A DNA stretch of 64,000 nt from Streptomyces sp. SW4 (GTDB taxonomy: Bacteria > Actinomycetota > Actinomycetes > Streptomycetales > Streptomycetaceae). Where the stretch lies: the NCBI GenBank assembly GCA_003248315.1, contig QKWM01000001.1, positions 372,001 through 436,000 on the forward strand, given 5' to 3'. The notes below the pieces were generated by a model. That model did no database searches. It was not told the origin of the DNA and saw nothing but the letters and a program-made list of their open reading frames with translations. Both the position numbers and the translations under genes were made by a program. The stretch's first letter is position 1. Each line of letters starts with the position of its first letter. Shown here one piece after another: positions 57,974 through 64,000 of this stretch.

Positions 57974-58794
57974 ATGACCGAGTCCGTGGGGATCCACGTC
58001 GAGAAGGTCCACTTCGGCTACCCCGGGCGGCCGGTGCTGCGGGGCGTCGACCTGACCGTCCGGCCGGGCGAACTGACCGCCCTCATCGGCCTGAACGGCT
58101 GCGGCAAGTCGACCCTGCTGCGGCTGGCCGCCGGGCTGCTGCGGCCGCACGAGGGGCGGGTGCTGCTCGGCGCGGACGACGTCGCGCGGCTGTCCGGCGC
58201 GCCACGGCGCGGAGGGTGGCGCTGCTGCACCAGTCCGCCCCGGCCGTACCGGGCATGACGGTACGCCACCTCGTCCGGCAGGGGCGGTACGCGGCGCGGG
58301 GCCCGCTGGGCATGCTGCGCGAGGGCGACGACCCCGTCGTGGACCGGGCGTTGCGGGACGTCGGGGTGGCGGACTGGGCCGACCGCGACGTCGACGCCCT
58401 GTCCGGAGGCGAGCGGCAGCGGGTGCGGCTCGCGATGGCGCTCGCCCAGGACACCCGGGTGCTGCTGCTGGACGAGCCGACCACCTATCTGGACCTGCAC
58501 CACCAGCTCGACGTGCTGCAGACCGTGGTGCGCCTGCGCGAGGAACGCGGACTCACCGTCGTGATGGTGCTGCACGACCTCGCCCACGCCGCCCGGTTCG
58601 CCGAACGCGTCGTCGCCCTGCGCGACGGCCGGGTCGTGGCCGACGGAACACCGAAGGAGGTCGTGACCCCGGGCCTGCTGGCCGACGTGCTGAAGGTGGC
58701 CGGCCGGGTCGGTGAGGACCCCGAGGGCGGCTGGCCGGTGTGTTACCCAGATCACCCGCTCCCAGCTCTAGAATATGAAAATCATATTCATTAG
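57974..58794 (+). CDS. FecE-type ABC transporter ATP-binding protein, one frameshift
   Basis: About 273 residues. Walker A LIGLNGCGKSTLLRLAAGLL, signature VDALSGGERQRVRLAMALAQ, Walker B VLLLDEPTTYLDLHHQLDVL and switch VVMVLHDLAHAARFAERVV are present; LLHQSAPAVPGMTVRHLV contains the Q-loop. One base is missing near 58205. The last 6 codons (up to the stop at 58792-58794) cover the next Zur box, so the importer operon runs directly into the peptide locus with no terminator between. Confidence 0.92.
58769..58774 (+). promoter_or_regulatory. Candidate -10 element of the peptide operon
   Basis: TAGAAT lies directly before the Zur box (58776-58790) and 78 bases before the precursor ATG. No strong -35 element is seen. 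Binding of Zur just downstream of it would block transcription. Confidence 0.5.
58776..58790. promoter_or_regulatory. Zur box upstream of the TOMM precursor gene
   Basis: TGAAAATCATATTCA is 12 of 15 identical to TGAAAATGATTTTCA with intact TGAAAAT and TTCA ends. It lies 63 bases before the precursor ATG and within the last codons of the Fec ATPase gene. Confidence 0.8.
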
Positions 58795-58852
58795 AGTGGG
58801 CGTCGCGGCGCTCATCCGAACGCCGTATCTCCCTGTCGATGAAGGAGAGTTC

Positions 58853-58966
58853 ATGGACAACGAGCAGGTCTTCGCGCCCATCGCCGACCCGGGTCAGCTG
58901 GCTCACGACTCGGCCTCCCACTCCAACGCCCTCGTGGAGAACCCGTTCGAGGACGGCGAGGAGTAA
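58853..58966 (+). CDS. TOMM (azoline peptide) precursor candidate, 37 residues
   Basis: ATG 58853 has GAAGGAGAGTTC directly before it. The upstream ATG 58775 lies inside the Zur box and lacks a ribosome site, so it is rejected. The peptide is acidic (N-terminal MDNEQVFAPIADPGQLAHD, C-terminal LVENPFEDGEE) and has no Cys or Thr. Its only cyclisable residues are Ser20, Ser22 and Ser24 in DSASHSN, with His23 in the middle. An RRE protein, a YcaO and a SagB-type oxidase follow, so oxazole formation on those Ser residues is the likely fate. A hairpin separates it from the enzyme genes. Confidence 0.75.
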   Translation: MDNEQVFAPIADPGQLAHDSASHSNALVENPFEDGEE

Positions 58967-58989
58967 GCGAGGGCCGGCCACCCTCGACC

Positions 58990-61383: not shown

Positions 61384-62757
61384 CGACGCTGCCGCTGGAA
61401 GCACTCGTCGACCCCGTCTGCGGCATCGTCCGCAAGGTCAAGCCCGTGGAACACCCCGCGGGCGCCCCGCCCCGCTACACCGCGCTCACCGCCGAGGTGT
61501 CCGACGCCCGCAGACACGGCCTGTGGCCCGCCGACCGGGTCTCCCTCGGCACCACCTTCGGCGACCCCGAGCAGGCCCGCGTCGCCGCGATAGCCGAGGG
61601 ATGGAACGGTACTGCGGCAACCGCGTGCCGCCTCCCGGCCATCCCGACGCCCCCCTCCGCGCCACCGCCGCCGAACTGGCCGACAAGGGCCTGCGCCTGT
61701 ACGGCCCGGGGAGCTGCCCGCGTACGCCGCATGGCAGTACGCCAGGGAGAAGTTCCCCTACCGCCCCCTCACCGCCGACACCCCCGCCCTGTGGACGCGC
61801 GGCACCGAACTGCTGCCCGGCGGGCGGACGACGGAGGTCTGGGCGCCCGTCGCGCTCACCCACCTCAACTGGCGCCAGGGCGACCTGCGCGAACTCCCCC
61901 GCACCCACCACCTCAACTACGCCGGCATCGCCACCGGACAGGGCCTCGACGACGCCGTCGAACGCGGCCTGCTGGAGATCGTCGAACGCGACGCCCTGGA
62001 ACTGTGGTGGCACCTGGACGGCCCCGCCCGCGGCATCGACCCGGCGAGCGTGCCCGGCCTCGCCGACGACCTCGCCGGCTCCGCGCTCGACGTCCACCTC
62101 GTCGAGATGCCCTCGGAGTTCGCCCCCTGCATGGCCGCGCTCGTCCACGACCCGCGCCTCGGCCTGTACGCCGCCGGCTTCGCCTGCAAGTACGACCCGG
62201 CCGAGGCCGCCCGCAAGGCCGTCCTCGAAGCCGTCCACACCTGGGTCTTCACCCAGGGCCTGACCGGCCCCGACGGCTGGGTCTTCCAGGCCGTCGAGGC
62301 CGGGCTGCTGGCGCGCGGGCTGTACCTGGAGCACCGGGCCGACGGCCGCTATCTCGACGTGTGCGGCGAGCAGTTCGAGCACGTACGGGACCTCGGCGCC
62401 CACGTACAGGTGTGGCTGGACGAGCGGATGGCGCCCGAGGCCCGGCGGTTCACCGAGCCCGCGCTCGGCACCGTGCCCGTCGACGCGGTCGAACCCGGCA
62501 GCCGGGAGCGGCTGCAGGACGCGCTGCGCGCGGGTGGCCACCGCGTCATGACCTTCGACCTCACCACCGAGGACGTGGCCGAGACCTCGCTGCGCGTCGC
62601 CCGGGTCCTCGTCTCCGGGCTGCTGCCCAACGCCCCCGCCGCCTTCGGCTACTTCGGCTGCCCGCGCCTCGCCGAGGCCGCCGTCGTCCGCGACTGGCGC
62701 ACCACCCCGCCGAGCGCGCCGGAGGACTTCACGCTGGCGCCCCCGCCGCACATGTGA
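61380..62757 (+). CDS. YcaO domain cyclodehydratase, two frameshifts
   Basis: About 459 residues. ALVDPVCGIVRKVKPVEHPA and GTTFGDPEQARVAAIAEGWE start the domain; ERYCGNRVPP, then ATGQGLDDAVERGLLEIVER with DALELWWHLDG, carry the Glu residues of the ATP/Mg site. VLEAVHTWVFTQ is the third site. It activates Ser/Thr/Cys amides with ATP and forms azolines. Missing bases near 61607 and 61722. The ATG overlaps the hydrolase stop. The C-terminus ends in APPPHM without the Pro-x-Pro-x-Pro pattern; APPPH is only a partial match. Confidence 0.9.
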
Positions 62758-63917
62758 GGGCCGCCGTGGAAGACCTCCGCGAGGACCACCCCGTGGACCT
62801 CGTCGCCGCCCTAGCCCGCGCCCGCTCCCCGGAGCGCCCCGGCCCCGACACACCCGCCGGGACGGCCGTCCGGCCCTGGCCGGGACCGCCGCGCCCGCTG
62901 CCGTCGGCCCGCCCGGCGGACCTCGACCTGGACGCCCTGCTGCGGCTGTCCCTGGCGGCCTCCGACGCATCCGGACGCCTCAGGCCCGCCCCGTCCGCCG
63001 GCGCGCTGCACCCGGTCGACACCGCACTCGTCGTGGGCGCCGGCTGCTCCCTGCCGCCCGGCCGCTACGGCTACGACCCGCTGCGCCACCGCGTCCACCA
63101 CCTCGGCCCGCCCCCCGCCGAGGCACCGCCGGGCGTGACGGCCGAACTCACCGTCACCGCACGGCGCACCCGGTCCCACTACGGCCACCGGGCCTGGCCT
63201 CTGCTGCTGCTGGACACCGGGCACGCCGCCGCGGCGCTGTACCTGGCCGCCCGCGTCCTCGGCACGGGCGCGCCCGAGGCACGGCTGGACGGCCTCACCG
63301 GCACCCCCCTGGCCGCCGTCCGCGTCCCGCCGCCCGGCGAGCAGGGGCACCGGCGCCCGGCGGACGAGCCGGCGCGGGGGCCGTCCGGGCCCACACCCGC
63401 CCCGGCCGACCTCCTGGCGCGCCGCAGCGCCCCGCCGCCGCTGCCGGGCACCCCCTCCCACGAGGCGCTGCGGGCCGTCCTGGCCACCGCCGAACACGCG
63501 GCGGCCGGCGGCCCCTTGCGCTGGTCCGCCGCGGTCGGGCCGCCCGCACCGGGCCTCCTGGCCCTGGCACCCGGAGGCACGGCACTGCGCCGGTACGCGA
63601 CGGGGGAGGCCCGCCCGGCACTCGCGGCCTGGGCCGCGGGACAGGCCTGGATCGCGGACGCGGGAGCCGTCCTGCTCGCCCACGGCTGCCCCTCCGACGC
63701 CGACGCCGCACACATCCGCCGCGCCCACCTGCGGGCCGGCTTCGCCGTCCACCTGGCCCAGGTCACCGCCCTGCGCCACGGGCTGGCGGCCCGGCCCGTC
63801 GGCTCCTGGCAGCAGGCGGACCTCGGCGCCGCCCTCGGAGCCCCGCCGGGCCGGGACTGGATCGTCCACGCCCTGGCCCTCGGCACCCGTCACGCCGACG
63901 AGGAGAACCCCACGTGA
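62754..63917 (+). CDS. SagB-type FMN dehydrogenase (nitroreductase fold)
   Basis: 387 residues, intact. The core is RLRPAPSAGALHPVDTALVV (RPSxGxxHP motif), HYGHRAWPLLLLDTGHAAAA with LYLAARVLGTG, and AWAAGQAWIADAGAVLLAHG for the second nitroreductase-like half (FMN site). It oxidises azolines to azoles, i.e. oxazoles for this Ser-only precursor. GTG 62754 overlaps the YcaO stop; GTG 62766 is the alternative. Two nitroreductase halves are fused in one chain, as in other SagB members. It is followed with a 4-bp overlap by the exporter. Confidence 0.9.
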   Translation: MRAAVEDLREDHPVDLVAALARARSPERPGPDTPAGTAVRPWPGPPRPLPSARPADLDLDALLRLSLAASDASGRLRPAPSAGALHPVDTALVVGAGCSLPPGRYGYDPLRHRVHHLGPPPAEAPPGVTAELTVTARRTRSHYGHRAWPLLLLDTGHAAAALYLAARVLGTGAPEARLDGLTGTPLAAVRVPPPGEQGHRRPADEPARGPSGPTPAPADLLARRSAPPPLPGTPSHEALRAVLATAEHAAAGGPLRWSAAVGPPAPGLLALAPGGTALRRYATGEARPALAAWAAGQAWIADAGAVLLAHGCPSDADAAHIRRAHLRAGFAVHLAQVTALRHGLAARPVGSWQQADLGAALGAPPGRDWIVHALALGTRHADEENPT

Positions 63918-64000
63918 TCGTCCACCCGAGCTGCGCCGCGCCGCGCGGCGCGCACGGCGCCCCCTGCTGGCGGCCACGCTGCTGCAGGGCGCCGTCACCC
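63914..64000 (+). CDS. Start of a probable ABC transporter gene (cut by window end), one frameshift
   Basis: GTG 63914 overlaps the SagB stop. Restoring one C near 63929 gives VIVHPELRRAARRARRPLLA and then ATLLQGAVT, the basic lead-in and first helix usual in ABC exporters of the ATPase-fused type. Only 29 codons are visible. If correct, it would export the modified peptide. Confidence 0.5.
   Translation, partial: MIVHPSCAAPRGAHGAPCWRPRCCRAPSP

Follow-up and report, generated by a model that had tools for sequence, protein, structure and literature searches.

The right-hand end of the DNA analysed here (64,000 bases of Streptomyces sp. SW4, contig QKWM01000001.1, positions 372,001 to 436,000; hereafter the window) contains, from position 53109 to past its last base, a gene set recognized from open reading frames and protein families: amiX on the minus strand, followed by amiF1 to amiF4, amiA, amiB, amiC, amiD, amiE, and amiT1 (Table 1). 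The gene for the second ATP-binding cassette (ABC) half-transporter, amiT2, lies beyond the window, after amiT1. The cluster itself is not new: Russell et al. described it in 2021 as that of streptamidine (ami; PMC8442711). The cluster of S. albidoflavus J1074 described there shares with the window the genes amiX, F1 to F4, A, B, C, D, E, T1, and T2. Its precursor likewise belongs to the ALV-motif family, and the core has the same length and place but reads HLSATH there and HDSASH in the window. Two features reported below, Zur-type boxes and an AztD-like fold of AmiX, are missing from its available main text, in which “Zur” does not occur and “zinc” occurs once.

The genes that follow the precursor are those named in a preliminary description of the window, namely, an AmiB-type protein, a CocE/S15-type hydrolase, a YcaO, a SagB-like dehydrogenase, and the start of an ABC half-transporter, and its view that the locus combines import, export, and modification is supported. 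Near-identical ami loci are present in strains of the same genus, the named relatives being Streptomyces. Five genes (amiF2, amiF4, amiB, amiC, and amiD) are frameshifted in the assembly, and the genome completeness is 83.4%; because relatives have open frames, sequencing error is likely. Protein families for several genes were called on intact relatives (the homologue in locus L033) rather than on the window copies.

Table 1. Features of the ami locus in the window
Feature	Positions	Strand	Description
amiX	53109..54311	-	Beta-propeller, AztD-like fold predicted (model of L033 homologue); by eye without signal peptide
Zur-type box TGAAAACGATTATCA	54337..54351	+	Between divergent amiX and amiF1; one mismatch to tGaNNatSatNNtCa
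amiF1	54403..55380	+	FecB-type substrate-binding lipoprotein; Peripla_BP_2 in L033 homologue
amiF2	55377..56949 (start approximate)	+	FecCD-type permease, frameshifted; L033 homologue matches FecC/FecD/FhuB models below cut-off
amiF3	56946..57953	+	Second FecCD-type permease, from open reading frame and same position in relatives
amiF4	57974..58794	+	FecE-type ATPase, frameshifted near 58200-58260; Zur box forms the last codons
Zur-type box TGAAAATCATATTCA	58776..58790	+	amiA promoter; 0 mismatches to tGaNNatSatNNtCa
Predicted -10 element TAGAGT	58792..58797	+	Overlaps amiF4 stop codon
Predicted leader hairpin	58805..58827 (ends approximate)	+	amiA 5' leader; consensus with some paired changes, 62 distinct leaders
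amiA	58853..58966	+	Precursor, 37 residues; core H-D-S-A-S-H, then SNALVENPF
amiB	59057..59909	+	Predicted leader-binding/E1-like protein, frameshifted; L033 homologue matches TIGR03882 weakly, below cut-off; role as in PMC8442711
amiC	59906..61265	+	CocE/S15-type hydrolase, frameshifted; CocE_NonD, Peptidase_S15, and PepX_C in L033 homologue
amiD	61381..62757	+	YcaO, frameshifted at ~61600 and ~61700; PF02624 at 3.3e-33 in place; open in relatives
amiE	62755..63917	+	SagB-like dehydrogenase; L033 homologue under SagB cut-off; Nitroreductase family
amiT1	63914..64000, continuing past the window to ~L002:13652	+	Start of ABC half-transporter

As a short ALV-containing precursor beside a standalone YcaO, the window amiA product carries motif A of the streptamidine family. 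All 76 precursors (those of 75 loci plus that of the window) show the pattern H.SA.H-SNALVENPF, and the core of the window is the most frequent among them (HDSASH, 42), followed by HLSATH (16), HASASH (9), and HASATH (9). In the precursors of loci L138, L139, L140, and L144, the core is present twice.

The preliminary description had placed a Zur box before both the precursor and the FecBCDE-type importer, and each is there. The S. coelicolor Zur motif derived from chromatin immunoprecipitation on microarrays (ChIP-chip) is tGaNNatSatNNtCa (PMC5472717); the amiA box fits every specified base and is separated by 62 bases from the ATG of the 37-residue reading frame, while the box between amiX and amiF1 departs from the motif at one base. 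Exact matches to the motif number five in the 7.48-Mb genome, the amiA box among them, against none for a reversed control pattern. When the genome was scanned with the idealised palindrome TGAAAATSATTTTCA at up to two mismatches, seven sites were found, consisting of the two ami boxes and five others. Of the latter, one lies at a ZnuA gene, one adjoins a cobW gene and an ABC-3 permease, and one adjoins ribosomal L33, L28, and S14 genes and a cobW gene; no zinc gene was seen alongside the remaining two (L096 and L099). A scan of the genome for iron boxes, using a DmdR/IdeR consensus at up to three mismatches, gave seven sites, none of them at ami, and iron control of the cluster was rejected on that ground. 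The neighbours of these sites were a decarboxylase beside a siderophore-interacting protein, a second such protein, a binding protein, an ABC ATPase, a heme oxygenase, a FecCD permease, and, less clearly, a DUF2470 gene. The earlier proposal that the peptide operon and the importer are under Zur control is supported as a prediction from sequence, and so is the contrast with iron control.

To follow the boxes in other genomes, we used the best 80 of 168 loci encoding a relative of the window YcaO, all but one of which are from Streptomyces; the exception, from Microtetraspora, was counted with the Streptomyces group. amiA was covered in 75 of the 80 loci (L009, L036, L069, L080, and L083 were excluded), and these, with the window and four further genomes of the genus, make up 80 Streptomyces-group rows. 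For each row, the best match within 160 bases upstream of amiA was compared with 200 dinucleotide shuffles of the same stretch (P ≤ 0.05). The box beat the shuffles in 80 of 80 rows and had three or fewer mismatches in 78. All 70 copies of amiF1 (those of 69 loci plus that of the window) have an upstream box with up to four mismatches, scored by mismatch count without shuffles: one mismatch in 12, two in 42, three in 10, and four in 6. Across the 1,401,092 bases of the 80 loci, 119 sites have two or fewer mismatches, and 63 of these lie before amiA, 53 before amiF1, and only 3 elsewhere.

For the wider class, 394 genomes were sampled, and a relative of AmiD at E ≤ 1e-40 was present in 33 of them, in 18 of 137 genera. 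Of the 32 other class genomes with a YcaO match, G144 was left out at a contig end, and L152 and L159 were unscored for the box. The box was significant in 12 of the 13 loci outside the genus whose AmiD is 55 to 67% identical (8/8 in family f17, 2/2 in f26, 1/1 each in f33 and f36, and 0/1 in f19). Because only 3 of 6 rows of family f18, one of those with motif-B-style loci, have a box, Zur control is not claimed for loci of that style. The conservation of Zur-type boxes at ami is a new contribution: no report of Zur control of ami was found in the main texts of the open-licence literature, although one may exist elsewhere. Streptamidine and zinc occur together there in Russell et al. and in PMC12982422, in whose available text zinc concerns thiolutin and Zur is absent, and co-mentions of “Zur” and “YcaO” are, by their titles, about E. 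coli or modelling.

The amiA box stands before the precursor, as had been described, but not in a free gap: it lies inside the 3' end of amiF4, whose stop codon occupies 58792 to 58794. amiF4 tails were recognised in 71 of 76 rows, and the stop codon starts one intervening base behind the box in 58 of these 71 loci. In 12 others the box is retained even though the reading frame terminates within its first bases. Among the 57 loci with the box inside the reading frame, A or T ends 252 of 285 codons (88%) in the box versus 928 of 11400 (8%) in the preceding 200 codons. Because these codon ends break amiF4 codon usage, the DNA of the box, and not the peptide alone, is under constraint, and coding constraint was rejected as its cause. 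Outside Streptomyces, the box is positioned between amiX and amiA. A TANNNT sequence follows the box after one or two intervening bases in 78 of 80 Streptomyces-group rows and after two in 7 of 8 f17 rows; a TTG at a spacing of 17 to 18 bases from it was seen in 21 of 80 and 6 of 8 rows, respectively. Since the box adjoins the -10 element, a bound repressor would likely cover the amiA promoter. Deletion of amiF1-F4 has been reported to abolish production (PMC8442711); given that the box lies inside the 3' end of amiF4, that deletion may also have removed the amiA promoter. An Rfam scan of 52400 to 64000 gave nothing at gathering score, the predicted leader hairpin being without an Rfam family.

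A replacement of the importer was seen in four loci. AmiF1 is absent from loci L045, L046, L051, and L053 and has no match elsewhere in their genomes (0/4 at E ≤ 1e-20); two further genomes whose loci were simply short do have a match. Right after amiT2 and on the opposite strand, all four encode a permease of the FecCD type, an ATPase, and a binding protein like those that accompany ami in f17 (binding proteins 52 to 57% identical). In all four, a box with one mismatch to TGANAANNNTTNTCA, scored without shuffles, precedes the matched start of the permease by 111 to 132 bases. Among the class loci fetched, 29 of 31 have a FecCD-type permease; the stretch of L142 includes, at its edge, just the end of a matching binding protein, and no such permease was seen in the fetched locus L146. 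In L137 to L141 and L143 to L145, a divergent operon contains amiX and genes for an S9 prolyl oligopeptidase, FecCD, an ATPase, and a binding protein, and the S9 enzyme might open the imported peptide. L142 (f36) has a COG0523-type gene beside ami with its own Zur-like box (Pfam cobW; best NCBIfam match ZigA, below cut-off).

AmiX, called hypothetical or a putative oxidoreductase in PMC8442711, is predicted to adopt an AztD-like propeller fold. The model of the L033 homologue has a predicted local distance difference test (pLDDT) score of 90.8, and AztD, an extracellular zinc chaperone (PMC6689063), ranks first among its structural matches in both Foldseek and VIA-align. A profile search of the PDB gave weak rows only, with AztD not among them. 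Unlike AztD, the AmiX proteins of Streptomyces start, by eye, at the first strand and lack the signal peptide of an exported protein; a signal-like N terminus is present in the homologue of L149.

Taken together, these data indicate that ami is very probably under Zur control. We lean towards regarding its peptide as a zincophore, a judgement held down because the published binding and phenotype tests were negative, though done without reference to Zur. In zinc-replete cells, as the positions of the sites suggest, Zn-Zur would occupy the box beside the amiA -10 element and the amiX/amiF1 box and block both promoters. In zinc-poor cells, AmiB, AmiC, AmiD, and AmiE would make the short peptide, as others have shown for the HLSATH homologue (the core here being HDSASH), and AmiT1/T2 would export it. 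The peptide could hold Zn(II) by its two conserved histidines and the amidine, AmiF1-F4 would take up the complex, and AmiX, if its AztD fold is as predicted, could take over the zinc inside the cell. On balance we favour a cluster that zinc starvation turns on and whose secreted amidine peptide carries zinc, to be retrieved by the FecBCDE-type importer. We judge it evenly balanced whether several actinomycete families share a ribosomal zincophore system of this kind: an amidine peptide under Zur with the core His-x-Ser-Ala-Ser/Thr-His, an exporter dedicated to it, a FecBCDE-type importer that can be exchanged, and an intracellular protein of AztD fold that takes the zinc.

Several observations weigh against these conclusions. 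Streptamidine bound neither zinc nor six other metal ions in liquid chromatography-mass spectrometry assays, an amiD mutant had no phenotype under metal starvation, and the available main text contains no statement of zinc limitation during peptide production (PMC8442711). On the side of regulation, L145 has no significant box before amiA, just 5 of the 12 remote YcaO relatives (34 to 40% identity) have one within 160 bases, and 59 of 80 rows lack a TTG at the -35 place. The first core histidine is displaced in L147 and L148 (THSAGH) and missing from motif-B cores. The AmiF1 model (mean pLDDT 57) was too poor for structure search. Foldseek returned 1174 rows for the AmiX model at E ≤ 0.001, with amine dehydrogenase nearly tying AztD by E value, and the sequence has no NCBIfam (E ≤ 0.001), Pfam, or phmmer PDB match. 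AmiX also lacks the AztD Cys pair, no Cys being conserved in 85% of 34 rows, and its invariant H39, H83, and H183 are no more than candidate counterparts of the AztD ligands H124, H167, and H218 at zinc sites 1 and 2. As for the published tests, the amiD mutant probably kept other routes of zinc uptake, and the hexapeptide that was purified may differ from the form that binds metal; a zinc role could therefore have been missed.

That the boxes arose by chance, or are kept solely as the coding end of AmiF4, whose last residues the window box does encode, is very improbable in view of the A/T codon ends, the loci in which the frame stops at the first bases of a retained box, and the position of the box outside Streptomyces. 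Boxes of Fur-family proteins are alike, and iron-siderophore systems make up most of the FecBCDE homologues and most of the relatives of AmiF1 in the PDB, which would allow another Fur-family protein to bind the boxes and the peptide to serve iron, nickel, copper, or cobalt. We consider this improbable: the boxes agree with the Zur motif derived from ChIP or with the znuA motif of actinobacteria (PMC5472717), the same consensus finds the ZnuA gene, cobW genes, and ribosomal paralogues in the genome, and no iron box lies at ami.

The preliminary description had expected an azoline or oxazole product with a 20-Da shift, that is, a thiazole/oxazole-modified microcin whose ring binds metal. The presence of a YcaO and a SagB-like dehydrogenase would suit it, and AmiE is essential although streptamidine is not oxidised (PMC8442711), so that a larger, oxidised product could have been missed. 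The characterised homologue, made from the core HLSATH, nevertheless has a six-membered amidine ring and no azole (PMC8442711), and AmiE falls under the SagB cut-off; the expectation is unsupported, and we think such a product quite improbable. Unlikely, but to be taken more seriously, is that Zur controls the cluster while the peptide carries no zinc, acting instead as a signal of zinc starvation or as a peptide taken up for some other purpose, with zinc uptake left to ZnuABC. This would agree with the negative zinc-binding and phenotype tests (PMC8442711) and with the occurrence of non-uptake genes in Zur regulons (PMC6103462). It fits less well with the retention of a FecCD-type permease, in distant forms, across the class loci, with the Zur-type box before the replacement importer, with an exporter and an importer that would switch together, and with the AztD fold predicted for AmiX.

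If the peptide is a zincophore as we propose, YcaO chemistry would here yield a ribosomal peptide that binds zinc. Methanobactins and the peptide metallophores of multinuclear non-heme iron-dependent oxidative (MNIO) enzymes are likewise modified ribosomal peptides that bind metal, as proposed for ami, but they are made by other enzymes and bind copper, whereas ami has YcaO chemistry and predicted zinc control. The Zur-controlled coelibactin of S. coelicolor, also a peptide described as a zincophore, is nonribosomal (PMC5472717, PMC6103462). Streptamidine-type clusters are common: 38 of 296 genomes of the genus encode a relative of AmiD at E ≤ 1e-100. No role has been assigned to them since their description in 2021 (PMC8442711). 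Zur control, as predicted, points to zinc starvation as a concrete condition in which to seek production, binding, and phenotype.

Other metal genes lie to the left of ami. The minus strand at 52536-53081 encodes a Zur-like regulator, close to whose start lies a weak Zur-like box (53047). Its closest PDB rows are 7vo0 (3e-32) and 3mwm (5e-32), which we take to be S. coelicolor Zur, and M. tuberculosis 2o03 (8e-30). Apart from the window, just 4 of the 80 loci have a relative of it within the flanks fetched, so it was rejected as a regulator belonging to the conserved core of the cluster. Positions 46257-52486 form a metal block with an AztC/ZnuA-like binding protein, an AztB-like permease, a heavy-metal P-type ATPase in pieces, and an ArsR/SmtB regulator.

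Remote YcaO relatives in L150 (8210), L151 (6854), L152 (~7590), L153 (7422), and L154 (7981) are accompanied by a different small open reading frame containing HSSNHAT or HSNNHST and ending in WR, adjoining FecCDE-type genes and in some cases near Zur-type boxes. Other candidate His-rich precursors (APHNHAVT; SNHHSHST) stand beside YcaO and ABC genes in L155 (9324), L156 (9393), and L160 (8644).

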